Part shown: positions 8,559 to 27,181 of the stretch, one piece after another | Layout: each line of letters opens with the position of its first letter | Position numbering within the stretch: the stretch's first letter is position 1 | NCBI RefSeq assembly: GCF_017357825.1 | Contig: NZ_CP046072.1 | Span: 868,001-932,000 of the forward strand | Source of the DNA: Sulfurimonas aquatica | GTDB lineage: Bacteria > Campylobacterota > Campylobacteria > Campylobacterales > Sulfurimonadaceae | Direction: 5' to 3' | Length of the DNA stretch: 64,000 nucleotides | The notes under the pieces: model-generated | Told to the model about the DNA's origin: nothing | Seen by the model: the letters and a program-made list of their open reading frames with translations, nothing else | Database searches by the model: none | Position numbers and translations under genes: made by a program

Positions 8559-8620
8559 ATGAAATTATTATAATACAATTTGTAATAATTAACAAGAAAA
8601 TTATATATTTTTATAATATT

Positions 8621-9577: not shown

Positions 9578-9630
9578 AGTAAATCCTTTTGTAAATTTAT
9601 TATAGTAAAATAATTACATTAAAGGAAAAC

Positions 9631-9876: not shown

Positions 9877-10321
9877 CATATATGTAGATGGAGATGCTTT
9901 TCCAAATCCTCTTAAACCAATACTTTTTCGCTCAATTGAGCGTTTAGGTATAAAAACAGTAGTTGTAGCGAACAAAAAGATAGACATCGGAAAGTCAAAA
10001 AATATCACATATATGATAGTAGACGCTGGAGCAGACGAGGCAGACCACAAGATAGTAGAGATGGTCCAAGAGGGTGACCTAGTTATAACTGCTGACATAC
10101 CACTTGCAGATAGAGTGATAAGTAAGAACGCACATGCGATAGACCATCGTGGAGAGCTTTATAGTGTTGATAACATCAAACAGTATCTTGCAATGAGAAA
10201 TTTAATGGATAAGATTCGTGAGAGTGGAGAGATAACCAAAGGTCCTAAGCCTTTTTCAACTAAAGATGCACATGAGTTTGCAAATCAAATTCATAGGTTT
10301 TTGACAAAACATTTTAAATAA
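9869..10321 (+). CDS. YaiI/YqxD family protein (UPF0178, DUF188)
   Basis: A 150-residue protein of the UPF0178 family, a PIN-like fold thought to be nuclease-related. Family markers are IYVDGDAFPNPLKPIL at the N-terminus, YMIVDAGADEADHKIVEM in the middle and LVITADIPLADRVI, which carry the conserved aspartates. The reaction has not been established for the family. It overlaps the GIY-YIG gene by 8 bp, and a TGGAG seven bases before its ATG lies inside that gene. The 3' end converges on the SprA-type gene with 18 bp between stops. Confidence 0.85.
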   Translation: MLSIYVDGDAFPNPLKPILFRSIERLGIKTVVVANKKIDIGKSKNITYMIVDAGADEADHKIVEMVQEGDLVITADIPLADRVISKNAHAIDHRGELYSVDNIKQYLAMRNLMDKIRESGEITKGPKPFSTKDAHEFANQIHRFLTKHFK

Positions 10322-10339
10322 CTAGAAATATAAAAAAAT

Positions 10340-10969
10340 TTAGGCTGGAATATCTAGTCTAATAGTATTATCATCTTCTTTTTTTTCATTAATATCATTT
10401 AAATTATTTTTATAGGTATCTTGACCTTGTACTTTTTCTAAATCTTCTTTAGCTTTTTGCTGTTGTGCTTTCATCTCCATAACGCGAGCACTCGCCGCAA
10501 CTGCAAAGTCTTGAGAAGATGGTTCACCCGCAGCCATTGCAGAAGCTATCACTTGTCTTGCATTTCTAATAGCCTCTTCAGGAGTGGATGCGGCTGGAGT
10601 AGTTATAGATACTTCTCCACCAATAGCATACATCTTTCCATCAGGACCCTGTTGGTAACTAAAAGAAGCTGCCCCCGTCATTCCACCACCAGCTCCTTGA
10701 TGAGCTGACTCATGTGCTTTAACTTCAGCATCACGAGCTGCTAAATCTTTGACGAGTTTTTTTTCATCTTCGCTAAGCTCATCCACAGATGAAGCAGATC
10801 TTTGTTCTTTTTCTTTTTGGAGTTTTTCTATTTGAGCTTGAGGGCTTTTGTCCTCTCTTTTTCTAAGAGGGTCCTCTTCAACGACAAGCATCTCTTTGTC
10901 GTTAAGTCGAATAGTATAATTTGAACCGATATCGTAAAGTGTACTTAATCCTATCTGCATAATCTCCAT
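10340..10969 (-). CDS. SprA-related putative metalloprotease
   Basis: A 209-residue protein matching the SprA-related family (PF12118-like). The core EVKAHESAHQGAGGGMTGAA contains an HExxH zinc-protease motif (H86, E87, H90), followed by the family's glycine-rich stretch and QQGPDGKMYAIGGEVSI. The N- and C-terminal thirds are charged and low in complexity. Similar proteins are common in Campylobacter and its relatives as putative metalloproteases; activity has not been shown to my knowledge. No signal peptide is obvious. A second ATG nine bases downstream could also serve as start; the first has no better ribosome binding site. Confidence 0.75.
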   Translation of the reverse strand: MEIMQIGLSTLYDIGSNYTIRLNDKEMLVVEEDPLRKREDKSPQAQIEKLQKEKEQRSASSVDELSEDEKKLVKDLAARDAEVKAHESAHQGAGGGMTGAASFSYQQGPDGKMYAIGGEVSITTPAASTPEEAIRNARQVIASAMAAGEPSSQDFAVAASARVMEMKAQQQKAKEDLEKVQGQDTYKNNLNDINEKKEDDNTIRLDIPA

Positions 10970-11021
10970 TATAGCACTTAAACGCTATTATTTCAATAAC
11001 TAATATTATATGGATAAATAA

Positions 11022-11243
11022 ATGGAATTTGAATTAAAAGATGAGTATATAGAACTTTTTAAACTACTCAAAGTTTTAGATTTAGTAGATACAGGTGCTC
11101 AAGCAAAGATGATAGTCTCAGATGGTTATGTTCTTAGAAATGGAGAGGTTGAGTTAAGAAAACGAGCTAAGATAGTCGCCGGTGACCATCTAACAGTAGG
11201 TGGTGATGTAACTATAGACGTAGTTGCCGCTAAAAAATCATAA
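11022..11243 (+). CDS. Small S4-domain RNA-binding protein (YbcJ-like)
   Basis: A 73-residue protein consisting almost only of an S4 RNA-binding domain: LKVLDLVDTGAQAKMIVSDGYVLRNG followed by ELRKRAKIVAGD. E. coli YbcJ is the closest recognised type, and such proteins are thought to bind structured RNA. It stands alone, divergent from the SprA-type gene 52 bp upstream. A rho-independent terminator follows the stop. Confidence 0.85.
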   Translation: MEFELKDEYIELFKLLKVLDLVDTGAQAKMIVSDGYVLRNGEVELRKRAKIVAGDHLTVGGDVTIDVVAAKKS

Positions 11244-11257
11244 ATAGATAGATAAAG

Positions 11258-11303
11258 AATATTTTGACTACTTCTAACTTCTAGTATGTCAAGATATTTT
11301 TTT
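11258..11303 (+). terminator. Rho-independent terminator after the S4 gene
   Basis: AATATTTTGAC (11258-11268) pairs with GTCAAGATATT (11288-11298), eleven pairs with one G-T wobble, and a run of seven T follows. It separates the S4 gene from the DUF302-like gene. Confidence 0.75.
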
Positions 11304-11384
11304 ATTAATTAAATAGTTTCCTTCCACAATCATTTCACAATTACTTCATATACTACCCTTGTAATAAAAATAAAGGATAGCAAA

Positions 11385-12383
11385 ATGAAAACATTTAACA
11401 AAACTTTACTAAGCCTAACAATGATAGGTTTTGGACTTTTTTCAACAAATTTACTAGGTGCCCAAGGGGTTAGATTTACTATAGTTGATGGCGATGTTAG
11501 TCAAAAGTATGCAAAGATGATTAGCACAAGCCTTGAAGATACAGGCTTTGTCTTGTCTGATCCACATGAAAGAATTAATGATGCATATGCAAAAAGATAT
11601 GGTAATCCAGAAGATCCAGATTATGATAAAGATGAGTGGAATGTAAACTTGGATAATCTTGGGTTTTACACTATAGCGCATGATGAGAAGTTAAATAAAC
11701 TACTTAAGGTTGCTCCAGAGCTTGGTGGTTTTTCACCTTTTAATCATCTTATTTATAAGAATAAAAGTGAAAACAAAACATATGTAGGTCATTTAGACCC
11801 AAATACAATGCTTGATATTGTCGGGGTTAAAGATTCTAACGTAAGAGAAGAGTTTGTATCTCTATTTGATCCACTTGATAAATGGATTACTGATGAGTTG
11901 GGTGGTGAAGTAAAAACAACAACATTTGACTCGTTGTCTGCAAAACCAATGATGACATACGAATTTGAATTTGATAGACCAGAGGATATAACAGAGTTTA
12001 CTGCAACATTTCAAGAGGAGTTTGAAGCTGCTTTTGAAGAGAACAAGTACATCATAGCCGGTTTTAAAGACTTCAAAGAGGGGTATGAAGATTTAGAGAT
12101 GGAGTTTGAAGAGTATGATGCTTACTGGGTTTACTCTTTATGTCATTTTACATTCTCATACAACATGTTTAATAAGGGTCGTCCAGATACGGGAGTTTTT
12201 GCACCGTGTTCAATGTATATGTATATCAAAGAGGGAACAAACAAATTAGTGATTGGTATGCCAAAATTATCAAACTGGATTGCTGTAGGCAGTGTAAAAG
12301 ATAGAGCAAAAATTGAGTGGACTAAAAAGATAGACAGCGAAATCATGTCGATTATGAAATCTCTTGGTGCTAGAGAGATTTAA
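11385..12383 (+). CDS. Exported protein with two DUF302-like domains
   Basis: A 332-residue protein with a signal peptide (LLSLTMIGFGLFSTNLLGAQ, cleavage probably after LLGA), so it is expected in the periplasm. The mature part looks like two divergent copies of one fold. The second ends VYSLCHFTFSYNMFNKG, then PDTGVFAPCSMYMYI, which resembles the DUF302 pattern with its conserved cysteines and proline; the first has GFSPFNHLIYKN at the matching place but lacks the cysteines. Function is unknown. The start is supported by AAGGA seven bases upstream. It is monocistronic, bounded by a terminator on each side. The DUF302 assignment is by eye. Confidence 0.6.
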   Translation: MKTFNKTLLSLTMIGFGLFSTNLLGAQGVRFTIVDGDVSQKYAKMISTSLEDTGFVLSDPHERINDAYAKRYGNPEDPDYDKDEWNVNLDNLGFYTIAHDEKLNKLLKVAPELGGFSPFNHLIYKNKSENKTYVGHLDPNTMLDIVGVKDSNVREEFVSLFDPLDKWITDELGGEVKTTTFDSLSAKPMMTYEFEFDRPEDITEFTATFQEEFEAAFEENKYIIAGFKDFKEGYEDLEMEFEEYDAYWVYSLCHFTFSYNMFNKGRPDTGVFAPCSMYMYIKEGTNKLVIGMPKLSNWIAVGSVKDRAKIEWTKKIDSEIMSIMKSLGAREI

Positions 12384-12389
12384 ATTTTA

Positions 12390-12417
12390 AGTGCACCACA
12401 TTAATATGTGGTGCACT
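12390..12417. terminator. Bidirectional hairpin terminator between convergent genes
   Basis: A perfect 12-bp stem with arms AGTGCACCACAT (12390-12401) and ATGTGGTGCACT (12406-12417) and a four-base TAAT loop. It lies between the DUF302-like gene and the convergent repeat lipoprotein gene and can serve both. Confidence 0.8.
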
Positions 12418-12441
12418 ATATAGAGAATATGTTTATTAACC

Positions 12442-14022
12442 TTAAAGTCCTAAAGACTCTAAAGTTTTAAGTGTTAAAGCACCTTGAGATAACTGATTAT
12501 CTTTTTGGTAAGCTTTTATAGCTTTAGTAGTTTCAGGTCCGTAAATACCATCAATGCTTGTAATAGCATACCCTTTTTCTTTTAGTGCAGTTTGAACTTT
12601 AGAAATTACAGCAGGATTTGTGTTTGTTTCACATAAAATTTCTTGCCATCTTAGGTATGAATCTGAAGTTTTTGAAACTTTTTTATATGAACTGTAAACA
12701 GCTGGAATCTCTTTTGTTCTTTCTTGAGCTGGTGTGTCAACAACTCTTGTTTTAACGATTTTACTAATACATGGGATTTCAACTTCTTTTGTAGTTGCTG
12801 GAGTAGCAATTACTTGTCTAGTGATTGTTTTGTAAACAGCTGGAGTTATAACTTCTTTTGTAGAAGCAGGAGTATCAACTACTTGTCTAGTGATTGTTTT
12901 GTAAACAGCAGGAGTTATAACTTCTTTTGTCGTTGCAGGAGTATCAATAACTTGCTTAGTTACTGTTTTATAAATAGCAGGAGTTACAACTGTTTTTGTA
13001 CTCGGAGTAGTTGTAACATCTTTTGTACTAATTGTTTTATATACAGCCGGTGTAATTATTTTTTTAGTATGTGCTGCTACATCTACAACTTTTGTCGTAA
13101 CAGTTTTATATTTTGCAGGTACTTCAACAAGACACATAATCTCACCTGTTGAATCATCCATCTTTTCTATTGCACCATGACCTCTCTTCCATGTTGAATA
13201 TGCATTTGCAACAAGAACCTCTTCTGTTACTGTTTTATAAGTAGCTGGAATAGTAACTAGTTCTGTTTTTTCTTCTGCTACCATTACTTCTTGTGTTGAA
13301 GTCCCATAAGTTGCTGGAATAACTACTAGCTCTGTTTTCTCTTCACTAATAAGTACTTCTGAAGTTACAGTTTTATATGTAGCAGGAATAGCTTTAAGCT
13401 CTCTTTTTTCCTCTGCAACCATTACTTTTTCTGTTTGTGTTTTGTATGTAGCAGGAATAACTTTAAGCTCTCTTTTTTCCTCTGCAACCATTACTTTTTC
13501 TGTTTCATTTTTATATGTAGCAGGTACTGATATGAGCTTAGTACTAGGCTCTCTTATCATTACAGTTTTTTCTACTACTTTATAAGTAGCAGGAATAATT
13601 TCTATCTCTGTTTTAGCTTCTTCTTGTAATCTCTCAACTAAACTCTCTTCGTATACAGCTGGAACAAGAACACGTGCATAACACTCTCCAGTTTTTGCAT
13701 TTGGTGGGATAAGTGCATTTGAAACTGCATTTGCATCTTGTATCTCTGTTGAATGCGTTTGAGCTTCAGTCATGCTAGCTTCCATAGGCTCTCTTGACTC
13801 TAAGTCTTTTATTTTACTATTAGCATTATTGAGCTGACTTGTAGTGCTATTTAACTGATTTGTAGTACTATCAAGTTTTCCTGCTTTCTCGTTTGCTACA
13901 TTTAACTCTTGTGTTAACCTTTGTATCTCTTGATCTTTTTGAACGTCTGTCATAGTAGAACAACCTGAGATCGCTAGAGCGATAGAAGATGCAACTACAG
14001 ATGTTTTTATATATTTATACAT
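12442..14022 (-). CDS. Lipoprotein with PATYK/PAVYK repeats and peptidoglycan-binding domain
   Basis: A 526-residue protein starting with a lipoprotein signal (VASSIALAISGC, lipidated cysteine at 21). A short coiled coil rich in Asn/Gln/Ser follows. Residues of about 105-460 hold about fourteen repeats of roughly 20-23 residues. The first half reads like IPATYKTVTEEVLVAEEKTEL, split here as IPATYKTVT and a charged strand; the second half reads ITPAVYKTITRQV then DTPATTKEV. The two halves are separated by a cysteine- and tryptophan-containing linker. The last 60 residues match a PG_binding_1 domain (KEKGYAITSIDGIYGPETT). It should tether peptidoglycan to a membrane through a rod of repeats. 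AAGGA precedes the ATG. The function is unknown and the repeat family is not one I can name. Confidence 0.75.
   Translation of the reverse strand: MYKYIKTSVVASSIALAISGCSTMTDVQKDQEIQRLTQELNVANEKAGKLDSTTNQLNSTTSQLNNANSKIKDLESREPMEASMTEAQTHSTEIQDANAVSNALIPPNAKTGECYARVLVPAVYEESLVERLQEEAKTEIEIIPATYKVVEKTVMIREPSTKLISVPATYKNETEKVMVAEEKRELKVIPATYKTQTEKVMVAEEKRELKAIPATYKTVTSEVLISEEKTELVVIPATYGTSTQEVMVAEEKTELVTIPATYKTVTEEVLVANAYSTWKRGHGAIEKMDDSTGEIMCLVEVPAKYKTVTTKVVDVAAHTKKIITPAVYKTISTKDVTTTPSTKTVVTPAIYKTVTKQVIDTPATTKEVITPAVYKTITRQVVDTPASTKEVITPAVYKTITRQVIATPATTKEVEIPCISKIVKTRVVDTPAQERTKEIPAVYSSYKKVSKTSDSYLRWQEILCETNTNPAVISKVQTALKEKGYAITSIDGIYGPETTKAIKAYQKDNQLSQGALTLKTLESLGL
12780..13020 (-). repeat. 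Tandem 69-bp coding repeats in the lipoprotein gene
   Basis: Consecutive units of about 69 bp (23 codons) encode PAVYKTITRQV plus DTPATTKEV. Two neighbouring units are nearly identical at the DNA level over ATTGTTTTGTAAACAGC and TTATAACTTCTTTTGT. This indicates recent unit duplication inside the gene and possible copy-number change between strains. Confidence 0.7.
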
Positions 14023-14165
14023 TTGAATCCTTTTTTATTTTGGGAATTGTAACCACAACAAATGAGTTATTAGTGAGTGAATATATATAATTTTTTTTAA
14101 TATAAAAATCACTCTTTACTCATTAATCAATGGTATAGTTCTATTAAATTTATCAAGGAATGAAA

Positions 14166-14648
14166 ATGAAAAAAATATTTATATCTTCGTGTATGGCGAT
14201 GTCTCTTTTTACAGTTGGGGCAAATGCTAAAAATTGTATTATGGTTGAAGAGTTAAATGTAGAGTTTAAAAATGCTTCTACTATATATAGTAATGATACT
14301 GAGAAGAAAGAGGTTCATAATTTTGCTAAATTTATGAAAGAAACAGATGTTTATGCAGTTATTGAAGGTCATACTAACTCTATAGCTAATGCTAAGTATA
14401 ACTACGACCTCTCTACAAAAAGAGCTGTAAAAGTAATGAGTGAACTAGAGGCTTTAGGTGTAGGCAAATCACATGTAAGAGCTATGGGTTTTGGTGAAAC
14501 CACACCTTTATATGACAACAGTACTAAAGATGGAGCAGACAAAAACAGAAGAGTTATTGCTGAGGTATTTAATTCCGCAGAGGAACTTGATGCATATATT
14601 AAATCACAAAAAAGTAGAATTAAAGGTATTGTTTATAAAGAACAATAA
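14166..14648 (+). CDS. Exported OmpA-domain protein
   Basis: A 160-residue protein with a signal peptide (KKIFISSCMAMSLFTVGANA) and one OmpA C-terminal domain: VYAVIEGHTNS, then NYDLSTKRAVKVM and VRAMGFGETTP, ending DGADKNRRVIAEV. The domain binds peptidoglycan non-covalently. No membrane-barrel part is present. I chose the ATG at 14166 over the one at 14160 because AAGGA ends only one base before 14160 but seven bases before 14166. It lies next to the repeat lipoprotein (divergent), which also has a peptidoglycan-binding domain. Its 3' end faces the left boundary of the mobile element. Confidence 0.88.
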   Translation: MKKIFISSCMAMSLFTVGANAKNCIMVEELNVEFKNASTIYSNDTEKKEVHNFAKFMKETDVYAVIEGHTNSIANAKYNYDLSTKRAVKVMSELEALGVGKSHVRAMGFGETTPLYDNSTKDGADKNRRVIAEVFNSAEELDAYIKSQKSRIKGIVYKEQ

Positions 14649-14657
14649 TACCTATAT

Positions 14658-14676
14658 CCCTATTGGATAAATAGGG
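14658..14676. terminator. Hairpin after the OmpA-domain gene
   Basis: CCCTATT (14658-14664) and AATAGGG (14670-14676) form a seven-pair stem around a GGATA loop, nine bases after the OmpA stop. It also overlaps the stop codon of the displaced DUF445 3' end on the minus strand, so it was probably the shared terminator of the two convergent genes before integration. Confidence 0.5.
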
Positions 14677-14719
14677 AGCTCACTAATCCAATAAGTCCAC
14701 CAAAGACTAAACCCCCTAC
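14660..14719 (-). pseudogene. Displaced 3' end of the DUF445 gene (left attachment site)
   Basis: On the minus strand this stretch reads VGGLVFGGLIGLVSSLFIQ then TAG. The intact DUF445 gene at the other end of the element finishes VVWGGVFGGLIGLVSSFFI. About 30 of 42 bases match, with most differences in third codon positions, and the longest exact run is CCACCAAA (14697-14704). This is what integration into the 3' end of a gene leaves: the host's own tail on one side and an element-supplied tail on the other. Joining this tail to the DUF445 body restores a normal gene. Confidence 0.8.
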
Positions 14720-14720
14720 A

Positions 14721-14812
14721 TTTACAATCTTTTACAATCTTCTATAGCTACCTAAATAAGGCATTTATAAGTCTTTCATTATTCTACCAGTATTTACAGT
14801 CTTTTGCAGTAT
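14721..14812 (+). repeat. 10-bp direct repeats inside the left end
   Basis: TTTACAATCT occurs twice in tandem (14721-14740), and a related pair TTTACAGTCT/TTTGCAGTAT lies at 14793-14812. TTTGCAGT recurs near the right end at 31930. Ten-base spacing puts the copies on one helical face. These may be binding sites for the integrase or excisionase. Confidence 0.45.
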
Positions 14813-14830
14813 TATGCTATTATCATCCTA

Positions 14831-14917
14831 TTTGTTGTAAAACTTTGTTGTAAAAAATACTTATAGTAGGTATTTACAAGGGATAAATAATATTACAACA
14901 TTTTATTTGTTGTAAAA
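14831..14917 (+). repeat. TTTGTTGTAAAA repeats at the left end (putative integrase arm sites)
   Basis: Direct copies start at 14831, 14844 and 14906. An inverted partial copy, TTACAACA, lies around 14893-14900 and forms a hairpin with the last direct copy. The first two are 13 bp apart, the same spacing as the pair at the right end. They lie between the attachment core and the integrase gene, where arm-type sites and an integrase promoter operator are expected. Confidence 0.55.
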
Positions 14918-14930
14918 AATAGGTTTTAGC

Positions 14931-15344
14931 ATGAGTTTGAGACAAGAATATCCACACGAAAAAATTTTAGATAGATATATAATGAGTAACAAATTAATTG
15001 GTGAATCTATGCCACATATAACTAAATCACTTAGAGAATATATGAGTATTAAAGATATCGAATTACTAGAGTCTTTACTAGAGACAGTAACAATTTACAG
15101 AGCTACATCTATACTCGAAGCAAAAGGAGATATAAATGATATTGGACAAAGTTGGACACTTGATATAAAAATAACTCAATTCTTTGCTTATAAAAATATT
15201 CATCAAGAAACAGATAGATGTGTAATGACTTCAACAATCAAAAAAGAGTTTATTTTTGCTTATATTGGAGAAAGAGAAGAAAGTGGGTGTGTAGTTAATT
15301 ATACAAAGTTAGAAAATATAAGTTATTCTAAAATAAAGGTTTGA
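14931..15344 (+). CDS. Small protein of unknown function, possibly ADP-ribosyltransferase-like
   Basis: A 137-residue cytoplasmic protein. I do not recognise a named family. The sequence TIYRATS (Arg57), GQSWTLDIKITQFFA (72-86) and AYIGEREES (110-118) has the order and spacing of the R / S-T-x / E-x-E triad of arginine-type ADP-ribosyltransferase folds, but this is pattern reading only. It is the first gene inside the element, in the position where satellites and prophages often carry accessory genes. AGG lies seven bases before its ATG. The integrase starts three bases after its stop, so both are likely on one transcript. Alternatives: a regulator of the integrase, or an unrelated fold. Confidence 0.5.
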   Translation: MSLRQEYPHEKILDRYIMSNKLIGESMPHITKSLREYMSIKDIELLESLLETVTIYRATSILEAKGDINDIGQSWTLDIKITQFFAYKNIHQETDRCVMTSTIKKEFIFAYIGEREESGCVVNYTKLENISYSKIKV

Positions 15345-15347
15345 AAA

Positions 15348-16532
15348 ATGGGTTTTAGAAAGATAAGAGCTAAGAAATATAGTGGAATTTATGAGTATTT
15401 CAAAGACAGTGATAAAGATAAAAAAACTATAGCTTTTTATATTTCATATCGTGACCTTGATAATAAAGTTAAAAAAAATAGATGTGATGCTACAAGCAAA
15501 GAAGATGCTTTACAAATTTTAAATGATAAAAGAACAGAATTAACAAGAGATAGAAACGAAATACAAAAAGATGCTTCACTCCTACACCAAAAAGTAATGA
15601 ATAAAAATTTAACGCTTGAAGATATTTCGAAACTTTATTTTCCTACTAAAACAGCTAAAACAATTAAAATGATTAGTGCAGGGTATTACAGTCATATTAA
15701 TCCTATATTGGGAAAGATAAAAATAACTAAGATTAAAACTACTGATATAAAAAATCTCAGTGATGTACTTAAAGAGAAAAAATCAAGACATGGAACACCA
15801 CTCAATCCAAGAACGGTAAAAAAACAAATTGCTAACTTAAGAGCCTTGTTTAATTGGGCAGTAAAAGAAAACTATGTTGATAAAAACCCTGTTGTTATAA
15901 AAGAAATCATTAAAGTGGATGCCAATGAAGCAGGACGGGTTTTATCAGATGAAGAACTTGAAAAACTATGGAACTTAGATGAGTTTCAACTAAAACCTAG
16001 ATTATTATTGTTTTTAAAAGCTTGTTACCATACAGGAGCTAGACCGTCAGCCGTTATGGACATACAAGTAAAGCATATTAACTTTGATAAAGGAGCGATA
16101 CATATTAGAGCCATGAAGCAAGGAAAACCCTACGATGCTAGAGTAAGTAAAGAGTTATTAGATTTACTTCATGAGTGGATACTAAAACATAACTTAGTAC
16201 ATGATAACTTCATTTTTTTCCCAATGCAGCTATATAAGAGATCTACAACTGACAAAGAACGAAAGTCTATTAAAAATAGTTCAACAAGATACTCAGGTTA
16301 TGCAGAACTACTAAGAAAAATATTTGATAAATACTTTAATCAAAATATAGGAACTTATGATCATGCTTATAGAGTGACTGTTTATACTATGAGGCGAACA
16401 AGTGCAACAAATGTTTATAAAAAATTTGGAATAGTTCATGCAAAAAAGTTTCTAAATCATACCGAGATTAATACCACGATGAAATATCTAAATATTGATG
16501 ATGATATGGAGGTAATTGATTATGGGCTTTAA
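15348..16532 (+). CDS. int: Tyrosine recombinase (site-specific integrase)
   Basis: A 394-residue phage-type integrase that would insert and excise the element at the DUF445 3' end. It has an N-terminal arm-binding region, a SAM-like core-binding domain (about 90-190) and a catalytic domain. Catalytic residues: Arg232 in HTGARPSAV, a lysine in the MKQGK loop (257-260), Arg349 in YTMRRTSAT, His371 in LNHTEIN and the nucleophile Tyr380 in MKYLNI. The position normally holding the first histidine of HxxR is Tyr346 here. AAAGG precedes the ATG. The gene lies about 640 bp from the left core. The next gene overlaps it by 11 bp. Confidence 0.93.
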   Translation: MGFRKIRAKKYSGIYEYFKDSDKDKKTIAFYISYRDLDNKVKKNRCDATSKEDALQILNDKRTELTRDRNEIQKDASLLHQKVMNKNLTLEDISKLYFPTKTAKTIKMISAGYYSHINPILGKIKITKIKTTDIKNLSDVLKEKKSRHGTPLNPRTVKKQIANLRALFNWAVKENYVDKNPVVIKEIIKVDANEAGRVLSDEELEKLWNLDEFQLKPRLLLFLKACYHTGARPSAVMDIQVKHINFDKGAIHIRAMKQGKPYDARVSKELLDLLHEWILKHNLVHDNFIFFPMQLYKRSTTDKERKSIKNSSTRYSGYAELLRKIFDKYFNQNIGTYDHAYRVTVYTMRRTSATNVYKKFGIVHAKKFLNHTEINTTMKYLNIDDDMEVIDYGL

Positions 16533-17307
16533 ATATAACACAGGCACTATTATAAATCAAACGAAAGAATATGAATACCGAATAACAGATAAACATGATG
16601 ATATACTTAAAATATATCTTGGTATTGATGCTCAGGGGTATATTAATGAAGTTTTTGATTATGTAATGGAAAAAGATTTAAGCTTATTAGATAATGAACA
16701 AGATATAAAACTAAAAATAAAAAATTTGGAAAAAAAAATATCAGATATTGATAAAGAAGTAGTTGTTATTAAAACTGCTAAAGTTGGAGATATGACTGAT
16801 GAAGAAGTCGAAGGCGCATTTAAGAGAATAGCTGAACAAGAAGGAGGATTTAGTGGTATGTTTGAATATAATAATCTTTGTTTTGCAAAATATGTGCTTG
16901 AAATGCCAATGCCTAAGTTTATTAAGTATATAAATCTAAGTACAGACATTGCCAAACATGCACAAAGTAACTTTCAAGCTCTAGTATTGTATTACATGAT
17001 AGGAATATTTGATGAACATTATAGTGCTAAAACTTTGATGATTAAATCCAAAAATAAAACAGCAGAAAAAGATTCATTTATAGCATCACTTAATCATCTT
17101 AAAACATTACTTCCTGATTCTATTTTGGACTATGAGTCCGCTATCGATATTATTGATATGAATTTTAAAAATGAAACAGAATATGATAATAAATTTAAAA
17201 GTCGTATTAAGAATAAACTAAAAGAAGCGGGATTTAGTAAAAATAAAATAGATAGGCATATTATGTCTATTTTAGAACAATATATAAAAGTAGGTTCTTT
17301 AAACTAA
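16522..17307 (+). CDS. Hypothetical protein coupled to the integrase gene
   Basis: A 261-residue protein that I do not recognise. I chose the ATG at 16522, because GGAGGT lies eight bases upstream inside the integrase gene; it overlaps the integrase stop by 11 bp. The region around residues 65-90 is a lysine/glutamate-rich coiled coil, and the C-terminus (KSRIKNKLKEAGFSKNKIDR) is basic and helical, which could bind nucleic acid. There are no membrane segments. Tight coupling suggests a job in recombination control, but nothing in the sequence proves it. Confidence 0.65.
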   Translation: MGFKYNTGTIINQTKEYEYRITDKHDDILKIYLGIDAQGYINEVFDYVMEKDLSLLDNEQDIKLKIKNLEKKISDIDKEVVVIKTAKVGDMTDEEVEGAFKRIAEQEGGFSGMFEYNNLCFAKYVLEMPMPKFIKYINLSTDIAKHAQSNFQALVLYYMIGIFDEHYSAKTLMIKSKNKTAEKDSFIASLNHLKTLLPDSILDYESAIDIIDMNFKNETEYDNKFKSRIKNKLKEAGFSKNKIDRHIMSILEQYIKVGSLN

Positions 17308-17493
17308 ATACAATTCTTTTACCCTCCATAACATTACATTCTGTCCTAATATTTAAGAATAGAATGTCTATTCAAACGAATTCAATTCTAGTAAAATTTC
17401 AGCATATTACAACATAGCTTTACTAACTTTAGCATTGGATAGCACATCCTTTTAGTTTAGTCAAATGTATAAATTAAAATATAAGGAATTACT

Positions 17494-17697
17494 ATGACTT
17501 ATGAAGAGTTTTTAGCCATGCTAAGAGACAATTACAATAAGATGCTGCTCACAAAAAAAGAAACAGCAAAAGAGTTAGGTACAAGTGAAGCAACTATTGA
17601 CCGTTTGAGAAAAAATGGACTAATTACATCTAAAAAAGTGCTAGGACAAATAATGTTTTCTATAGATGAAATCGCTCGTTTTTTAACAGTAAGTTAG
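17494..17697 (+). CDS. Excisionase/AlpA-like helix-turn-helix protein
   Basis: A 67-residue DNA-binding protein. The segment LLTKKETAKELGTSEATIDR, then LRKNGLITSKKV and FSIDEIARFL, follows the MerR-type winged HTH used by excisionases (HTH_17) and AlpA-like activators. Such proteins bend attachment-site DNA and direct excision, or activate integrase and satellite genes. AAGGA lies six bases before the ATG. A single gene with long AT-rich flanks, between the integrase unit and the replication/terminase genes, a position typical for a decision regulator. Confidence 0.75.
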   Translation: MTYEEFLAMLRDNYNKMLLTKKETAKELGTSEATIDRLRKNGLITSKKVLGQIMFSIDEIARFLTVS

Positions 17698-17753
17698 TTT
17701 ATATTAGACTTGAACTCTAAAGTAGATATTAAACAATCTTTCTAAAAAAATAT

Positions 17754-17771
17754 AGGAGATGTAAAATGTAA
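17754..17771 (+). other. Shine-Dalgarno followed by a start-stop codon pair (ATGTAA)
   Basis: AGGAG at 17754-17758 is placed seven bases before ATG (17766-17768), which is followed at once by TAA. An equally well spaced case lies at 28313-28329. A minimal open frame like this could be a ribosome-holding minigene or the remains of a decayed gene start. No coding region follows in any frame for about 170 bp. Confidence 0.4.
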
Positions 17772-17940
17772 AAATAATCCTTATTAAATGAGATTAAGAA
17801 GAGAATATTTCTGTGTAGTTACTGAAATTCTACTCTATTAACTCATACAAGTCAATACAACAATGGTTTTTATTCATTATGAATAATCAAAAAAAATAGA
17901 CACATTCTCGATGTCTATTTTTAAGCATAAAGGAAAAATT

Positions 17941-18654
17941 ATGAGAATACAAACTGATAGTATTATTTTTCAACTTCAACATGAAAATGAAGGATCGTTA
18001 CTAATTGCTGAAAGGCTAGCATCACATATGAAATGGAAACTTGAAATTTTAAAATCAATCCCTGTCCGGCCAATAAAAAAGCATAAAGAACTATGGAAAA
18101 AAACCTTTGGGCGAGATATACCTAAAAGTGCTTCTTTTATAGCTATTTTAGAAACATCTAGTGGTATAAAAATTATATTAATTAAATATGGAAATTCTAA
18201 GTTCCTACAAATAGAATTTCATGGTCTTGATGGCCTTACAAAAGATATATATTCTCGTAGTGATAATGCAGTATTATTAAATTCAACGTTAAAAGAATTT
18301 ATTAAATTATGGAATGAGCCTGTAAGGTTAATGCGTTTAGATAGAAGTGTAAACATAGCTGGCCAAAAATGGGAAGATTATACTAATAGTAGACAGCATA
18401 GAAAATTATGTCGTAAACGTAAGCCTGAGTTATTTAAAACAACAACAATATTTTATCAGAATAAAAAAAGAAGATACATTAAAGTACTTGCCTATGATAA
18501 GCAACAGTGTAATGGTCTTGATTATGCTGTTACTCGTATTGAATGTAGATTTTTAGCTCAATACTGGAATAACTTGTCTGGTGAAATATCAAATGTGATT
18601 GATATAGCTATTAAAAAAGCAGATTTGTATATAGAAGAAAAACTATTATATTAA
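17941..18654 (+). CDS. Possible replication initiator (Rep_trans/RstA-like)
   Basis: A 237-residue protein. The ATG at 17941 is preferred to that at 17911 because AAAGGA lies six bases upstream of it. The C-terminal half carries VRLMRLDRSVNI, then TTIFYQNKKRRYIKVLAYDK and YAVTRIECRF. This resembles the D / Y-x-K / R-x-E-x-R series of Rep_trans and filamentous-phage RstA-type initiators, in which a tyrosine nicks the origin. Similarity is weak and read by eye, so a different DNA-binding role is possible. It is followed by about 185 bp without a gene and then the terminase genes. Confidence 0.5.
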   Translation: MRIQTDSIIFQLQHENEGSLLIAERLASHMKWKLEILKSIPVRPIKKHKELWKKTFGRDIPKSASFIAILETSSGIKIILIKYGNSKFLQIEFHGLDGLTKDIYSRSDNAVLLNSTLKEFIKLWNEPVRLMRLDRSVNIAGQKWEDYTNSRQHRKLCRKRKPELFKTTTIFYQNKKRRYIKVLAYDKQQCNGLDYAVTRIECRFLAQYWNNLSGEISNVIDIAIKKADLYIEEKLLY

Positions 18655-18839
18655 GTGTATGTAAAAAGTATTCTATATTAAACACCTACAAAGTATGTTT
18701 AGATGGCGATTGGAGGAGGATGAAAAAGTGTACATGAGATTTAAGTAAAACAGTATTTTAGAGAAAGATGTTAATTTGATAATCAACATAGTCACACAGT
18801 AATGAAGATGATGAAAAATATAGGTATAGGGTAGGTAAC

Positions 18840-19214
18840 ATGTCAAAGCAAGTAACTGAAAAACAACAAAAGTTCTGTGAAGAATTTATGCTTACAAGAA
18901 ATCTTACAAAGTCTGCTCTAGGTGCAGGATACTCTAATACTTTCGCACTTAAAAAATCATATCAACTTATGAATGACCAGAAGATACTTAAGAGGATTGA
19001 AGAGTTGGAAAAAGAGTATTTCACCAACCACTTTAAAACACTTGGTATTAAAGCTGTTGAAGAGTTGATGGTAATCATAAACAGTGGTACTTCAAGTGAG
19101 AAACTTCGTGCCATTGAAATTGCCTTAAAGCTCAATGGTTTTACTCAAGGTATTTCCATAGAAGCCAATACGAATGATATATCTATAAAAGTGAAGTTGC
19201 CAGATGGAATATGA
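18840..19214 (+). CDS. terS: Phage terminase small subunit
   Basis: A 124-residue protein matching the Terminase_2 family. The N-terminus VTEKQQKFCEEFML, then TKSALGAGYS, forms the DNA-binding HTH, and KLRAIEIALKLNG lies in the oligomerisation part. In phages it recognises the packaging site and hands DNA to the large subunit. The stop overlaps the large-subunit gene by 11 bp. In a satellite such a gene would redirect a helper phage's heads to package the element. Confidence 0.85.
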   Translation: MSKQVTEKQQKFCEEFMLTRNLTKSALGAGYSNTFALKKSYQLMNDQKILKRIEELEKEYFTNHFKTLGIKAVEELMVIINSGTSSEKLRAIEIALKLNGFTQGISIEANTNDISIKVKLPDGI

Positions 19215-20460
19215 TATAGATTTATCTAGTGCTAGTGATTTTATGAATAAAAAAGCATATGATATGCTTCATATTTTGGCATCTAGATACATCATTAGTT
19301 ATGGTGGTGCAGGCTCAGGTAAAAGCTATGGAATTACACAATATATTTTGATTATGATCTTAACTTTAGAAGGGCATAGATTTTTAATAGCAAGAAAATA
19401 TGCAACATCTCTGAAACGTTCAGTCTTTCAACTCTTTTTAGATTTAATTTTAGAATGGGGACTATCAGATCTTTTTAAAACCAATCTTACTGATATGACA
19501 ATCACTTGTCTCAATGGTAATAAGATAATGTTTGTCGGCCTAGATGACGTGGAGAAGCTGAAGTCAATAGCAGGTGTTACAGGCATATGGATTGAAGAAG
19601 CCACAGAAGTTACAGTAGAAGATTTTATGCAACTTGATCTTCGTCTTAGAGGTAATACTAAACATCATCTGCAGATTTTACTTTCATTCAATCCTACTTC
19701 ATCTAGATCATGGCTTAAAAAGAGATTCTTTGATAAAAAAGATGATAATGTTCATATTATCCATACTACATATAAAGACAACAAGTTTATTGATGAGCAC
19801 TACAAACAGACACTTGAAAATTTAATAAATCAAGATGATAACTTTCATAAAATCTATGCCTTAGGTAAATGGGGTACCCTGAAAGGACGTATATTTGAAG
19901 AGTATAAGACAATTGATATATTGCCAGAAGATTATCAATTACGTAAGTATGGTTTAGATTTTGGATTTAATGCTCCGATGGCTCTCATTGAGATACGAGA
20001 AGACAATAATAACCTTTATCTATATGAGTGTTACTACAGAACAAAGACTACAACTGATGAGTTAATACAGTATATGAAACAAGAAGGTATATCAACCCGT
20101 GATTCTATTTATTGTGATAGTGCTGAACCTGACCGTATAGAGACGCTTAAAAATGCTGGGTTTAATGCAATAGCAGCAAAGAAGAATGTAAGAGCTGGTA
20201 TTGATGCTGTTAAGTCTAAAAGTCTACATGTATCTAAACAAAGTACTAATCTAATAAAAGAATTTGATAACTATAGCTGGAAAGAAGATAAGGATGGCAA
20301 TAGCTTAGAAGAACCAGTTAAGTTCAATGACCATCTTATGGATGCATTGAGGTATGCTGTATTTACTACAGAGAGACACGCTCGTCAAATTATTGTTAGT
20401 CCAAGAAGAAAGACACGCTTTGCAGGATATGGAGACTATAGTGGATTTAAAGGATTTTAA
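19204..20460 (+). CDS. terL: Phage terminase large subunit (PBSX type)
   Basis: A 418-residue packaging motor. The ATPase part has Walker A SYGGAGSGKS near residue 37 and Walker B GIWIEEATE. The nuclease part has LDFGFNAPMAL, CDSAEPDRIETL and the terminal FNDHLMDALRYAV, which carry the RNase H-like acidic residues. Length and all key motifs are intact, so it appears functional. It overlaps the small subunit. A portal gene normally comes next, but only about 560 bp without a convincing gene follow. Confidence 0.92.
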   Translation: MEYDIDLSSASDFMNKKAYDMLHILASRYIISYGGAGSGKSYGITQYILIMILTLEGHRFLIARKYATSLKRSVFQLFLDLILEWGLSDLFKTNLTDMTITCLNGNKIMFVGLDDVEKLKSIAGVTGIWIEEATEVTVEDFMQLDLRLRGNTKHHLQILLSFNPTSSRSWLKKRFFDKKDDNVHIIHTTYKDNKFIDEHYKQTLENLINQDDNFHKIYALGKWGTLKGRIFEEYKTIDILPEDYQLRKYGLDFGFNAPMALIEIREDNNNLYLYECYYRTKTTTDELIQYMKQEGISTRDSIYCDSAEPDRIETLKNAGFNAIAAKKNVRAGIDAVKSKSLHVSKQSTNLIKEFDNYSWKEDKDGNSLEEPVKFNDHLMDALRYAVFTTERHARQIIVSPRRKTRFAGYGDYSGFKGF

Positions 20461-21024
20461 ATTAGCCATCTTATACACAATTAAATACATAGGCAAAACA
20501 ATACAATAATATTAGGACTATTAAATAATGCTAGAGTTAAGTTAGAGCATTGCAGATGATATTGTCACCGGCAGACCTAAAATAGGCATCCAAGATTATT
20601 GTTAAGTCCTGTTTTTGGATTTATCTCACATAGTCCAAAAGATACCTGTCCATTTTAGGTCCGCTAGTAACACTCAGATAGAAGTATTTGAATGTGTACT
20701 AAATGGATACATGAAAGAACCCACTAAAGAGAATAGAAGTTTAAACGATACAGTCAAGTTGTTAAGAGGCGAGTGCATGTATGCAATAATAAGGTATACA
20801 AGAAGCAGATAGAGAATATATATGGTCATTTTAATATCGTATTATGTAACTAAATATAATATTAAATAAAATTATAATACTTAAAAGAACTAATTACATT
20901 ATTTTAAGTTTATGATTTGTTTTAAAAAGATAATATATGTTAATTGAAGTAATAATGTTATTTCTGCTAATAGTTTAAAATAAAGGATAAACCATGAAAA
21001 TATCAAAAGTATTAAGTAGCGATA
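20461..21024 (+). other. Gap with possible decayed coding remnants after terL
   Basis: No convincing intact gene. Short frames occur, for example one reading IADDIVTGRPKIGIQDYC before a stop (around 20550-20605), and a 65-codon TTG frame at 20615-20812 without a ribosome binding site. Both could be debris of a portal or other head gene. The last 200 bp are very AT-rich. At 20984-21015, AAAGGA is followed by a six-codon frame (MKYQKY, stop) just before the next gene. Confidence 0.35.
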
Positions 21025-21339
21025 ATGAGTAAAAAATTAATTACAATAATATCTATATTTATTCTTTCAATAGTATTTCTATCTCAGATTACTTTGTTTG
21101 TTATTCAACCAATGGGAGCAATACCAAAGGGCAAAACATTGGTAATATGGAAATTAAACAAGACTAATTTTATAGATAGTGCAGATGCAATGTGTGTAAG
21201 AGAAACTGGCAGTTTAAATATATTATGTAGAGGTATGATGATGTCCGCAGTAATAAGTAAAAGTTCTGTACTTATGAAATTACCTTATAGTAGCTCACTA
21301 TATAGCATATCAACAGGTGGAAAGGAGTATAGCAGGTAA
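21025..21339 (+). CDS. Small membrane-anchored protein of unknown function
   Basis: A 104-residue protein with one N-terminal hydrophobic helix (LITIISIFILSIVFLSQITLFVI), then a polar part with two cysteines (AMCVRETGSLNILCRG). The helix may anchor the rest outside the cytoplasm. No family is recognised. It has no ribosome binding site of its own; a tiny six-codon frame with a good one ends ten bases upstream, so translation may depend on that. Its stop overlaps the next ATG (TAATG). Confidence 0.5.
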   Translation: MSKKLITIISIFILSIVFLSQITLFVIQPMGAIPKGKTLVIWKLNKTNFIDSADAMCVRETGSLNILCRGMMMSAVISKSSVLMKLPYSSSLYSISTGGKEYSR

Positions 21340-21617
21340 TGGAAATAATTTTTTATGGAATGATATTAGGAGTAATACCAGCAATGATAGCTCAATCTAA
21401 AGGTCGTTCTTTTTTACTATGGTGGTTTTATGGAGCAATGATTTTTATAATAGCACTCCCCCATTCACTACTTATATCTAAAGACCAAAAATCAATAGAT
21501 GAGCAGTCATTATCAGAAGGTATGAAAAAGTGTCCTTATTGTGCTGAACTTATTAGAAAAGAAGCAACTATATGTAGATATTGTCAAAAAGAACAAACAA
21601 CTAAAGAGGAAATATAA
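21339..21617 (+). CDS. Membrane protein with C-terminal zinc ribbon
   Basis: A 92-residue protein with two hydrophobic segments (IIFYGMILGVIPAMIA and LLWWFYGAMIFIIALP) followed by a zinc-ribbon motif, KKCPYCAELIRKEATICRYC (CxxC-x11-CxxC). Small proteins of this layout are common in prophages and islands; their roles are unknown. Translationally coupled to the genes on both sides (TAATG before, TAA followed directly by ATG after), so it belongs to a small membrane-protein operon. Confidence 0.65.
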   Translation: MEIIFYGMILGVIPAMIAQSKGRSFLLWWFYGAMIFIIALPHSLLISKDQKSIDEQSLSEGMKKCPYCAELIRKEATICRYCQKEQTTKEEI

Positions 21618-22005
21618 ATGAAAAACAGATTCTTAATATTAGCATTAGTAGTACCAATGTTATTAATAGCAGGAAATGCTAAGGATAGAAATAGACAATA
21701 ATGAAAAGTATAATTCGACAGGCTCCTCTTATGTTGATTATGAAGAGATTAGTTCACTAATAAAAGGATTGAAATATATTGAGTCTATTACAAAAAATCC
21801 CACAAAACTTAAGAATTATGAAGCAATATATAAAACAAATGGTGAACTTGAGATAACAAATTTCAATTCCAGTAGTGGAAACTTAGTTGCAGTTCAAGCA
21901 GGTAGATATAGTGGTAAATCTATATATCTAGAATTAAGTCAAGTCAAAGAGTTAAAAGCAATTCTTAGTGAAGCATATACAAAAATAAAATCAATGAAAA
22001 AATAA
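21618..22005 (+). pseudogene. Exported protein gene with an apparent frameshift
   Basis: AGAGGA lies seven bases before an ATG at 21618 that encodes a clean signal peptide (MKNRFLILALVVPMLLIAG) but runs into TAA at 21699-21701. A frame shifted relative to it, open from 21676 to 22005, encodes 109 residues (for example STGSSYVDYEEISSLIKGLKY split over two strands, and YSGKSIYLELSQVKEL). That frame has no ribosome binding site of its own. The simplest reading is one secreted protein of about 125 residues broken by a small indel near 21680-21700. A sequencing error would look the same. No family is recognised. Confidence 0.5.
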
Positions 22006-22093
22006 ACGTGTTTCATGGAAACATCATAATTTAGATTGTTTATGTAAGAATAAATTAGTAATAAAATGTAAATAACTTAGAAAAGGTTCTTTT

Positions 22094-22487
22094 GTGTTGA
22101 AAATTAGTAAGGTCGAATTAGTTATATTCTTAATTTCGTTGGTTGTGACTACAATTTTTTATTTTAGTAATCAGAATATGGCTTCTTTTCTTATTATTCC
22201 TCTTGCATTTGTTGCTACATGGATTTATATGATGCCAACAGTAATAGCTGAAAAGAGAGCATCCAAGCCTTTTTCTTATAGGAGTGCTGAATTTTTTATT
22301 AGGATTTACACTTTTAGTATGGGTAGCTTGTTTTATATGGGCTTCTACAAATAGAAATGAGGAATCGAATAATTCAATAAGAATAAATATTGCAGAAGAA
22401 ATTGAAAAATTAGATGTATTAAGAAAAAAAGGATTACTAACGGATGAAGAATTTAAGCAACAGAAATTGAAAATATTAAACTCTTAA
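22094..22487 (+). pseudogene. Superinfection-immunity-type membrane protein with SHOCT domain, frameshifted
   Basis: The 5' frame (GTG at 22094, AAAAGG seven bases before) encodes two hydrophobic helices and PTVIAEKRASKPF. The other frame then continues LIGVLNFLLGFTLLVWVACF and, after a linker, a SHOCT-like end (EEIEKLDVLRKKGLLTDEEF). Together these fit the superinfection-immunity membrane family (PF14373-like), whose phage T4 member Imm blocks DNA injection. Removing one T from the five-T run at 22270-22274 joins the frames. So it is a one-base frameshift: mutation, slippage control or sequencing error. Confidence 0.65.
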
Positions 22488-22816
22488 TAGCCTCTTTAAG
22501 CTTCTAAAATAAAAGTCAAGAGAACTTGCATTATGTTAACCACTAAATCCCTATAAAAGCCACTTTAAGGTTTAAATTTCAATAATTAGTATTCTATGTG
22601 TTATTCTTAAGAGGGTAAAAAAGGATAAAACCCTAAATATAGGGATTTGCTACTTTAAGAAATAAAGTTTTTGTGAGTTTAAGTTTTACTGCTCCTTTAT
22701 GGACTTTACTTCCATACATTGTAGCTCAAAATTAATATTAACCTTTTATATTAAAAAAGCTATTTGTAAGTAAATATGTAATACTGTTATATAAAATTAA
22801 CTTACAATGGACAAAC
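22488..22816. other. Gene-free stretch with an inverted repeat
   Basis: No coding frame is convincing. AAATCCCTATA (22545-22555) recurs inverted as TATAGGGATTT (22638-22648), and the local hairpin CCCTA-AATA-TAGGG lies at 22631-22644. Both copies are followed on the plus strand by a C(C/T)ACTTTAAG sequence. It may form a structured RNA or be a regulator site. Confidence 0.35.
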
Positions 22817-23497
22817 ATGATATACAAGAAACTAAATTTTATAATACCTGTAGTAATAGCATCAGGATTAATGTTGTCTGGGTGTAACTCAGGACCAAAA
22901 CCTACATTAGTGCATATACCTTCATTGAAAACTATATCAAAAGCTGAGATTGGACAGAATATGTTTGAAAGTATTTATGCTGTTTATAAGCATGAAAATG
23001 AGGTGAAATTCTTAGATAACATAGACAAAAGTAAATATACATATGATAGTGATAGATATACATTTTATATGAAAAAAATAGATAATCAATGTGTAATGAT
23101 TAGAGAGAATGGTCGTACCCATCTATATGATAAAAATTGTGATGGTGTATTTACTCATGGAAATAATGATTTATTTAGTGATGGAAAACTTGATAAGGAA
23201 GTGAGATATACAACTGTTCCAGCTAAACCTAGTAGTATACTACCAAGTTCATGGAAATATGATGTCTTGTATCAAGGTAAAATTGAAAACAAGCTGAACA
23301 TAACATTTCGTGAATACTATTACTCACCTACAGTTCGTAATTTTATGATACGAGATTCGTTTACACAAAATATACAGTATGAACTTAATGAAAATGGTAA
23401 GGCAATGATTGGTTTTAAAGGCTTGAGAATCAAAGTACTAAAAGCAACAAATTTGGATATTGAATATCAAGTAATTAAAGATTATGACAAGATATAG
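22817..23497 (+). CDS. Putative lipoprotein of unknown function
   Basis: A 226-residue protein with a lipoprotein signal ending LMLSGC (lipidated Cys near residue 23). The mature part is charged and probably mostly beta, with NQCVMIRENGRTHLYDKNCD giving a possible disulfide pair. No family is recognised. The next lipoprotein gene starts ten bases after its stop, so the pair are co-transcribed. Codon use is as AT-rich as the rest of the element. Confidence 0.6.
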   Translation: MIYKKLNFIIPVVIASGLMLSGCNSGPKPTLVHIPSLKTISKAEIGQNMFESIYAVYKHENEVKFLDNIDKSKYTYDSDRYTFYMKKIDNQCVMIRENGRTHLYDKNCDGVFTHGNNDLFSDGKLDKEVRYTTVPAKPSSILPSSWKYDVLYQGKIENKLNITFREYYYSPTVRNFMIRDSFTQNIQYELNENGKAMIGFKGLRIKVLKATNLDIEYQVIKDYDKI

Positions 23498-23507
23498 AAG
23501 GAAGATT

Positions 23508-24089
23508 ATGACAAAGTTATTATTAATAGCCTTACTAATGGTCAGTTTATTACTTACTGCTTGTGGTGGTGGAGATTCTACTACTGGTACAAATACTTCA
23601 GACTATCTGATAGTAGCTGGGAATACTAAAGGTTTTGAAATGAAATCAAATGGTAAAGTTTTATCAGGTGGTACAGGTTGCATTAGTGCTAGGATATATG
23701 ATAGTAATGCTAATAGCCTTGCTCTAAGTAATAAAGTCGTAGACCTCACTCCAGGAACATATACTGCTGTATTTACTTCAAGGAGTAGTACATCACCAAA
23801 TTCAATTGGTGCATTATATACAACTGAATCTACTTTTCAGGTTCCAGCTGTAATTTATAATAACCTTTATTCAATCACTGCAGGTACTACACAACTATAC
23901 AAACTTACCATATCACAAACTACATCTTTTGCAATGAGTAGAACACAAACAGCTTCAAGTTTATATGATGAAAATTTAAACTACATCACCACTTCAGATA
24001 CATTTACATTAAATACAGGAACTTATTATTTATTAGCATATTCAATTAACTGTGGCGTTGCAGGTAGTTTCAATATGGCTGAACTTTAA
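23508..24089 (+). CDS. Putative secreted lipoprotein, Ser/Thr-rich
   Basis: A 193-residue protein. The ATG at 23508 is chosen because AGAAGGA lies just upstream and it opens a textbook lipoprotein signal (LLIALLMVSLLLTACGGG); an earlier frame start at 23484 lacks both. The mature part is rich in Ser, Thr and Gly with repeated LYxL and TxxTFT-like strands, suggesting a beta-sandwich. No family is recognised. It is the second gene of a lipoprotein pair. Confidence 0.6.
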   Translation: MTKLLLIALLMVSLLLTACGGGDSTTGTNTSDYLIVAGNTKGFEMKSNGKVLSGGTGCISARIYDSNANSLALSNKVVDLTPGTYTAVFTSRSSTSPNSIGALYTTESTFQVPAVIYNNLYSITAGTTQLYKLTISQTTSFAMSRTQTASSLYDENLNYITTSDTFTLNTGTYYLLAYSINCGVAGSFNMAEL

Positions 24090-24169
24090 CATCTAAATAC
24101 ATGAGATAGTTACAAGGCTAGAGAAGATAAAGGCTCAAAAAGAGTACCAAGTAACCAAGGGATAATGAA

Positions 24170-25195
24170 ATGATATTAGATGGTCTATATCTATATAGAT
24201 ATGCTAACAGTGATAGAATTGAATTAAATGGGATTCACAGTAAAGAATCAATTATTGAACTGATGGTAGACGAATGGATTTACTATATGGAATGTCATAA
24301 ATGCGGTAAATCAGACTATTGTAAATACACGGAACCACATAATGTTAACCCTGATAAAAAAGCTGAAATTAAATGTGGAGTTGCAAAAGATTTTATTACT
24401 AATTATATAAATAACACTTTTGATAGTATCGAAGATTTAGAGATTGAACAAAAGCAAGCTTATTTAGATACAGCTTATTACTTATCTCAATATGTACAAA
24501 GTGCAGAAATAGGTATTGGTACTTTGATAAATGAAGATTATTTAAGTGTATGGGGAGAGTTTGCACCTGCACTGTATGGTTTTACTAAAGAGCCATTAGA
24601 TTATTTAAACAAAGCTCATAAAGAAATGAAGCATGTAGGAATGTTTAGAAGTAAAAAGAGTTTGATATTAGTTGAAGGCTATAGTGAAAATATTTTTGTA
24701 GATAATTTTTCTGACATCAAGGTAGTGAATTATGAAGGAGAAGGTAGAATAAGATACGACAAGATAGAATTTTTAGTGCAAGAATATCAAGAAGATGGTT
24801 ACGAAGTTTATTTACAATCTGATATGGATGGAAAACCACATAATGACAAAGTAAACAAAATAATTAATGGAGGATTAATAAAAGAAGAAAATATATTTCA
24901 ATTTAAACACGACTTTGAATCCTCCATTCCAGCAAAACTTTTTTATACAATACTAATAGATAACGAATTGATTAGTGATACATTTGAAAACTTTGAAGAA
25001 GGTATAGATTTACAACGAGGTATAGTTCATTATGTTGAGACGAAATATGATATTAGTATTAATAAAAGAATGATAGCAACTGAAGTTAGTTTAGCAATAC
25101 ATAAATATTCTAGAAGAAGAAACCTATATCAAGATGAAAGGTTTTTAGATACTGAAATAGGAAAGTTTTGGAATTTTATAAGGAAAGTAAACTAA
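24170..25195 (+). CDS. Stand-alone TOPRIM-domain protein, OLD-nuclease-like
   Basis: A 341-residue protein. The first 160 residues are helical with four cysteines (42, 45, 51, 69) that could bind zinc or an iron-sulfur centre. From 163 the pattern KSLILVEGYSENIFVDNF gives the catalytic glutamate (Glu169) of an OLD-type TOPRIM. SDMDG (Asp218, Asp220) gives the metal-binding DxD, and KHDFESSIP gives the downstream acidic strand. OLD-family TOPRIMs are nucleases usually fused to an ABC-type ATPase; no such ATPase is present here. AAGG lies nine bases before the ATG. A thermonuclease gene begins directly after its stop, and a PD-(D/E)XK-like gene follows that. Confidence 0.65.
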   Translation: MILDGLYLYRYANSDRIELNGIHSKESIIELMVDEWIYYMECHKCGKSDYCKYTEPHNVNPDKKAEIKCGVAKDFITNYINNTFDSIEDLEIEQKQAYLDTAYYLSQYVQSAEIGIGTLINEDYLSVWGEFAPALYGFTKEPLDYLNKAHKEMKHVGMFRSKKSLILVEGYSENIFVDNFSDIKVVNYEGEGRIRYDKIEFLVQEYQEDGYEVYLQSDMDGKPHNDKVNKIINGGLIKEENIFQFKHDFESSIPAKLFYTILIDNELISDTFENFEEGIDLQRGIVHYVETKYDISINKRMIATEVSLAIHKYSRRRNLYQDERFLDTEIGKFWNFIRKVN

Positions 25196-25687: not shown

Positions 25688-25690
25688 TTA

Positions 25691-27142: not shown

Positions 27143-27181
27143 GAGGAGCATCTCTCTATAGCTTAGTATATTTTTTAGCAC

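Follow-up and report, generated by a model that had tools for sequence, protein, structure and literature searches.

A candidate phage satellite of Sulfurimonas aquatica with both terminase subunits and no head genes

A ∼17.4-kb element integrated in the chromosome of Sulfurimonas aquatica is probably a phage satellite that would fill heads made by a helper phage using its own small and large terminase subunits (TerS and TerL). It occupies about positions 14,650–32,080 (14.65–32.08 kb) of the window, the 64,000-nucleotide stretch of contig NZ_CP046072.1 analyzed here. As phage satellites in general do, it integrates, is bordered by att sites and has too few genes to build a virion. A preliminary description of this DNA had proposed a satellite-like gene set devoid of virion genes; the gene content, the borders, a second complete element of the same design and a clade of related TerL proteins all favor that proposal.

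Results

Borders and gene content

The element lies at the 3′ end of a DUF445 gene (32030–32740, minus strand), and a copy of this gene end is found at each border (Table 1). The local alignment of 14649–14715 with 32016–32082 scores 50, compared with a mean of 24 and a maximum of 44 for shuffled sequences. Integrases that replace the end of their target gene typically leave two such copies. Both borders also carry TTTGTTGTAAAA motifs. With one mismatch allowed, the motif has 11 matches in the window, where 2.06 are expected, and within the window exact copies are confined to the two ends of the element; those at the left end are probably integrase arm sites. In three relatives (G410, G416 and G427), the left-flank genes lie only ∼0.3–1.2 kb from the DUF445 gene. 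Further genes (11385–14648) also stand between the left flank and DUF445 in the window, so these relatives show neighboring flanks and not the exact empty site. The duplicated DUF445 end, the motif clusters at both ends and the close flanks in relatives bear out the 17.4-kb extent given in the preliminary description. The genes that it had named within 15348–20460 also hold up, with the integrase, the AlpA-like helix-turn-helix (HTH) protein, TerS and TerL all intact by domain matches.

Table 1. Features of the integrated element, in window coordinates
Feature	Position	Strand	Basis
attL region: displaced, diverged DUF445 3′ end, reads VGGLVFGGLIGLVSSLFIQ* as protein	14649–14715	−	local alignment
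Three exact TTTGTTGTAAAA motifs, left end	14831–14917 (starts 14831, 14844, 14906)	+	motif scan
gp1, function unassigned	14931–15344	+	PHROG 4776, E 7e-12
Tyrosine integrase	15348–16532	+	PF00589 E 2.8e-16; phrog_1 E 2.9e-43
gp3, ORF overlapping integrase end	16516–17307 (TTG) or from 16522 (ATG)	+	ORF call
AlpA/excisionase-like HTH regulator	17494–17697	+	HTH_17 E 1.1e-7; phrog_66 E 8.8e-9
Rep, probable rolling-circle replication initiator	17911–18654	+	family alignment and predicted structure
TerS	18840–19214	+	Terminase_2 E 8.6e-13
TerL (Terminase_3, PBSX type)	19204–20460	+	Terminase_3 E 4.2e-53
Small accessory genes	21025–22487	+	phrog_37309, phrog_8436
Imm_superinfect-like gene split over two frames	22094–22487 (22094/22284)	+	ORF and domain scan
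Two lipoprotein-like genes, 341-aa gene, SNase-like nuclease	22817–25687	+	domain scans
GapS1-like antiphage protein	25691–27142	+	NF047931 E 1e-15, below curated cut-off
Endonuclease I fragment-like gene and Sel1-repeat lipoprotein	27182–28269	+	domain scans
HNH nuclease	28357–29079	−	PF01844 E 2.1e-9
GIY-YIG and Schlafen-group-3 helicase gene, MazG-like gene	29162–31176	−	PADLOC PDC-S14 E 1.2e-10
178-aa gene, no family	31259–31795	+	ORF call
Two TTTGTTGTAAAA-type motifs (one exact, one near copy), right end	31968–31992 (starts 31968, 31981)	+	motif scan
attR region: functional DUF445 3′ end, element-supplied, reads VWGGVFGGLIGLVSSFFI* as protein	32016–32082	−	local alignment

The left half includes an ORF, gp3, that is missing from the earlier gene list and that overlaps the end of the integrase gene by 17 nt from its TTG start, or by 11 nt from the ATG at 16522. 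Relatives also have an ORF at this position after the integrase, usually with a 4-nt overlap. BLAST and hhalign detect no homology between gp3 and these genes, most of which have no detectable homology even to one another, and a single-sequence search of IMG/VR with gp3 gives no match.

The right half appears from its domain matches to hold defence-like cargo, a point not made in the preliminary description, and this fits the tendency of satellites to carry anti-phage genes. Some decay is present here: the 565 bp after TerL (20460–21025) are nearly empty, and the Imm_superinfect-like gene looks frameshifted, its split probably reflecting either a frameshift or a sequencing error.

Absence of structural genes

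Scanning the element's proteins against Pfam and PHROG (Pfam and PADLOC only for the last three genes) reveals no family of portal, protease, capsid, tail or lysis proteins. In a tblastn comparison with the window element, the 717 proteins that relatives encode in the 9 kb following TerL gave zero matches, and they likewise gave zero in the second complete element described below. As controls, six ordinary prophages whose TerLs are more distant gave 15–38 matches each. Capsid or portal genes among the hypothetical proteins, or a closely related full-length prophage, would both have spoken against the earlier proposal. Neither came to light: the scans and tblastn detect no capsid, portal or remnant of one, and the nearest TerL relatives belong to other Sulfurimonas elements, including a complete one that has no capsid gene. 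A Pfam search of the window's own genome, which covered HK97-type capsids only, found none; a resident helper of that type is therefore not apparent.

Rep is a predicted rolling-circle initiator

As a single sequence, Rep has no match in Pfam, PHROG, IMG/VR or phage or plasmid records. An alignment of 23 family members, in which Y195 and K197 are invariant, yielded a confident AlphaFold2 model (pLDDT 83) whose best matches among solved structures are plasmid rolling-circle initiators (Foldseek E 4.6e-6; VIA Z 10.0). RepDE and a Geobacillus initiator score Z 10.0 and 9.3, with the next unrelated structures at 8.0, and one family member has a weak Phage_CRI match. Rep, which the preliminary description called a possible replication initiator, probably has the rolling-circle-initiator fold and would start replication of that type.

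A Rep-marked family with varied packaging genes

The Rep profile has strong full-length matches in 16 of 135 Sulfurimonas genomes (∼12%), not counting the window's own, and the single-sequence search adds matches elsewhere in Campylobacterales. A typical locus consists of an integrase, an overlapping ORF, an AlpA-like HTH gene, one or two small genes and Rep. Most of these elements have short direct repeats at their borders, commonly beside a tRNA, tmRNA or rpsU gene, and the repeats delimit elements of 4–13 kb, most of them 4–8 kb. The preliminary description included neither this larger integrative family nor its cf-PICI-like members.

What follows Rep differs among members. Several have a TerS-like gene (phrog_309 or phrog_51), and others have nothing recognizable. 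In L274, an IMG/VR contig and the one viral contig found with Rep profile A7 (profile A3, built from a closer set, has no match in the viral search), Rep is followed by connector, head closure, capsid, HNH, TerS, TerL, portal and protease genes. L137, a contig of a Sulfurimonas metagenome-assembled genome (MAG), matches this layout in its gene sizes and has a capsid 74% identical to that of L274. Both are cf-PICI-like elements on the same Rep backbone. The family therefore includes members with no packaging genes, with TerS only, with TerS and TerL, and with a complete cf-PICI-type head module. Packaging type changes 12 times on the Rep tree, compared with 13.1 times when labels are shuffled; with the two values so similar, the modules appear to have been exchanged. 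The window Rep itself forms a very long branch on this tree, and its placement is unsure.

The layout of the window element is known from only one other complete element, from Sulfurimonas sp. SAG-AH-194-C20 (G491; loci L146 and L239). This 14.5-kb element is bounded by 29-bp att repeats, adjoins a tRNA-Glu gene and encodes, in order, an integrase, an overlapping gene, AlpA, a 107-aa and a 183-aa protein, TerS and TerL, followed by defence genes (cytosine methylase, AIPR, DUF4420, Z1 and HATPase). It has no detectable Rep of the window family. A Sulfurimonas MAG contig (L140; WFPU01000234.1) carries an HTH gene, a small gene, Rep, TerS and TerL in this order, and ends 54 bp after TerL.

Other loci have features of their own. 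The window's own genome contains a second small integrative element (L142; G000:C1:2548001-2564000, ∼7013–11646) with an integrase, a 236-aa gene, an HTH gene, a 226-aa gene and a 316-aa Rep-like protein, the last a weak match to the Rep profile (E 4e-7); a transposase-like gene adjoins it. Beside a 4.1-kb element of the Rep family in G230 lies a DnaG-like primase (L099, 11378–14146) whose zinc-binding region appears to be interrupted by an intein. At two loci (L093, 12334–15480; L096, 3613–5943), the genes after Rep encode large proteins with matches to phrog_13543, a group of very large phage proteins (1879 positions).

The terminase is conserved in capsid-less elements

TerL belongs to the PBSX/Terminase_3 family (TIGR01547/PF04466), with a match to NCBIfam TIGR01547 above the cut-off. 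It has a Walker A motif (GGAGSGKS), an acidic Walker B, an SFNPTS coupling motif and nuclease acidic positions at D252, D305 and D376. These three acidic residues are invariant in comparison with two distant relatives, in only one of which a Walker A glycine is replaced by serine. The nearest TerLs, 51–54% identical, come from two other Sulfurimonas genomes (L140 and L146), and the window TerS is 37–44% identical to those of L140, L139 and L146. In a tree of 60 TerLs, the window, L140 and L146 proteins form one clade (support 100/96), separate from phage TerLs. Divergence within this clade is 0.28 at codon position 2 and 0.59 at position 3, with no stops, whereas neutral change of the TerL frame nearly always introduces them. 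By these measures the clade is under purifying selection. Clade membership, position-2 conservation and the absence of stops together argue that the function of the motor is what has preserved it in elements that lack a capsid. Judging from two complete elements and one cut contig, the capsid-less state may be as old as the clade.

In nearly all listed relatives whose contig continues past TerL, a portal-sized protein is encoded directly after it. Two viral contigs (L023 and L024) have a TerL 42% identical to that of the window and no portal-sized gene next to it; these may be additional motor-only elements or phages whose genes are ordered differently. A stop-broken TerL, up to 70% identical in parts, lies between a TerS-like gene and ParA/ParB genes at another locus (L085, G004:C96, 2632–3904), which is possibly a decayed phage-plasmid.

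Discussion

Known satellites differ in what they bring to packaging: PICIs bring TerS or some other redirecting factor, PICMIs bring none of these, and cf-PICIs encode both subunits with a whole head (PMC10803314, PMC11389934, PMC10690885). The window element resembles PICIs, including SaPIs and the Gram-negative types, in its integrase, AlpA-type regulator, replication gene, TerS, att sites at a gene 3′ end and lack of a full structural set. PICIs are described with TerS or without terminase (PMC10690885); here, in contrast, an intact TerL follows TerS, and the replication protein is probably of the rolling-circle type. With cf-PICIs the element shares both terminase subunits and the Rep backbone on which L274 and L137 carry a head module. 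Unlike them, and unlike L274, it has no portal, protease, capsid or connectors, and its TerS and TerL come from other families. The order integrase, overlapping gene, alpA, replication gene is that of the PICMIs of Vibrionaceae, which most Rep-family relatives also match in small size. The agreement between gp3 and the PICMI gene iolg is positional, with no sequence homology found. The element differs from PICMIs in having TerS and TerL, which these lack (PMC10803314), in giving no DUF3987/DUF5906 primase match and in using a DUF445 gene instead of fis as its site. The nearest named TerLs, 46–52% identical, belong to PBSX-type phages (Helicobacter pullorum prophages BK070134-138 and Thermoanaerobacterium phage THSA-485A), but these are 32–42 kb long and, in the two records examined, have a large portal-sized gene after TerL.

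For induction, mode of replication, docking and transfer, we infer a course of events in which the integrase would insert the element at the DUF445 3′ end and restore the end of that gene, and AlpA would probably trigger excision, as it does in PICMI (PMC10803314). Rep would start rolling-circle replication of the excised circle, which could give concatemers as the packaging substrate. TerS made by the satellite would pick satellite DNA, and the TerS-TerL motor would dock on the portal of the helper's empty heads and fill them. The net effect would be to divert helper heads, none of which the satellite encodes. Since TerL and its own portal normally form a fitted pair, a motor that comes without a portal has to match a foreign one, and this weighs against the satellite reading. 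Also against it count the single other complete element with this layout, the very long branch of the window Rep, the lack of a detectable Rep of this family in the G491 element and the signs of decay after TerL.

Both the near-empty stretch after TerL with its frameshifted-looking small gene and the PBSX-type ancestry of TerL would suit a deletion remnant of an ordinary prophage that has lost its head, tail and lysis genes. We consider this unlikely, and the capsid-less clade already refutes it in large part: TerL followed by cargo also occurs in an independent complete element, the three TerLs form a clade and are conserved as proteins, the backbone is common to many capsid-less elements and no trace of structural genes is found. 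An origin from a cf-PICI by loss of the head genes, with the terminase retained, is favored by the complete head module that accompanies the same Rep backbone in L274 and L137, yet we regard it as very unlikely. The cf-PICI TerL and TerS belong to phrog_9 and phrog_83, whereas those of the window belong to phrog_3717/phrog_2 and are phrog_51-like, respectively; the cf-PICI terminase follows connector, capsid and HNH genes, whereas the window's stands directly after Rep. Given the different TerL families, we dropped the idea of TerL as a head-module leftover.

The main remaining rival to docking is interference instead of self-packaging. Here, TerS-TerL of a satellite or defence island would disturb the packaging of the helper, for example by competing for the portal or cutting helper concatemers, and the element's own transfer would depend on the helper terminase. 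Known satellites do disturb phage packaging (PMC11389934), and both complete elements carry defence-like cargo. However, TerS is kept, and many relatives have it without TerL, as do PICIs, in which it redirects packaging; both enzymatic halves of TerL are also conserved, and we judge interference improbable.

Returning to the self-packaging satellite, we found no headless satellite with both subunits in the satellite papers cited above, and a literature search found no satellite papers on Sulfurimonas or other Campylobacterales. Judged from sequence, the element appears to combine a PICI/PICMI-like backbone with a terminase-only packaging module, and the Rep-marked family appears previously unnamed; we claim no priority. 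We lean slightly towards a broader proposal, a satellite lineage of Campylobacterota in which the motor has been kept headless over deep divergence, TerL docks on a foreign portal and packaging modules are exchanged on one backbone.

Known satellites either redirect the helper's motor, with TerS or similar factors, or bring a whole head, as cf-PICIs do. If our reading is true, a motor-only satellite would be intermediate between these strategies and would show whether a TerL works on a portal with which it shares no evolution. The Rep family itself may serve as a natural one-backbone series in which to study the gain and loss of packaging modules.
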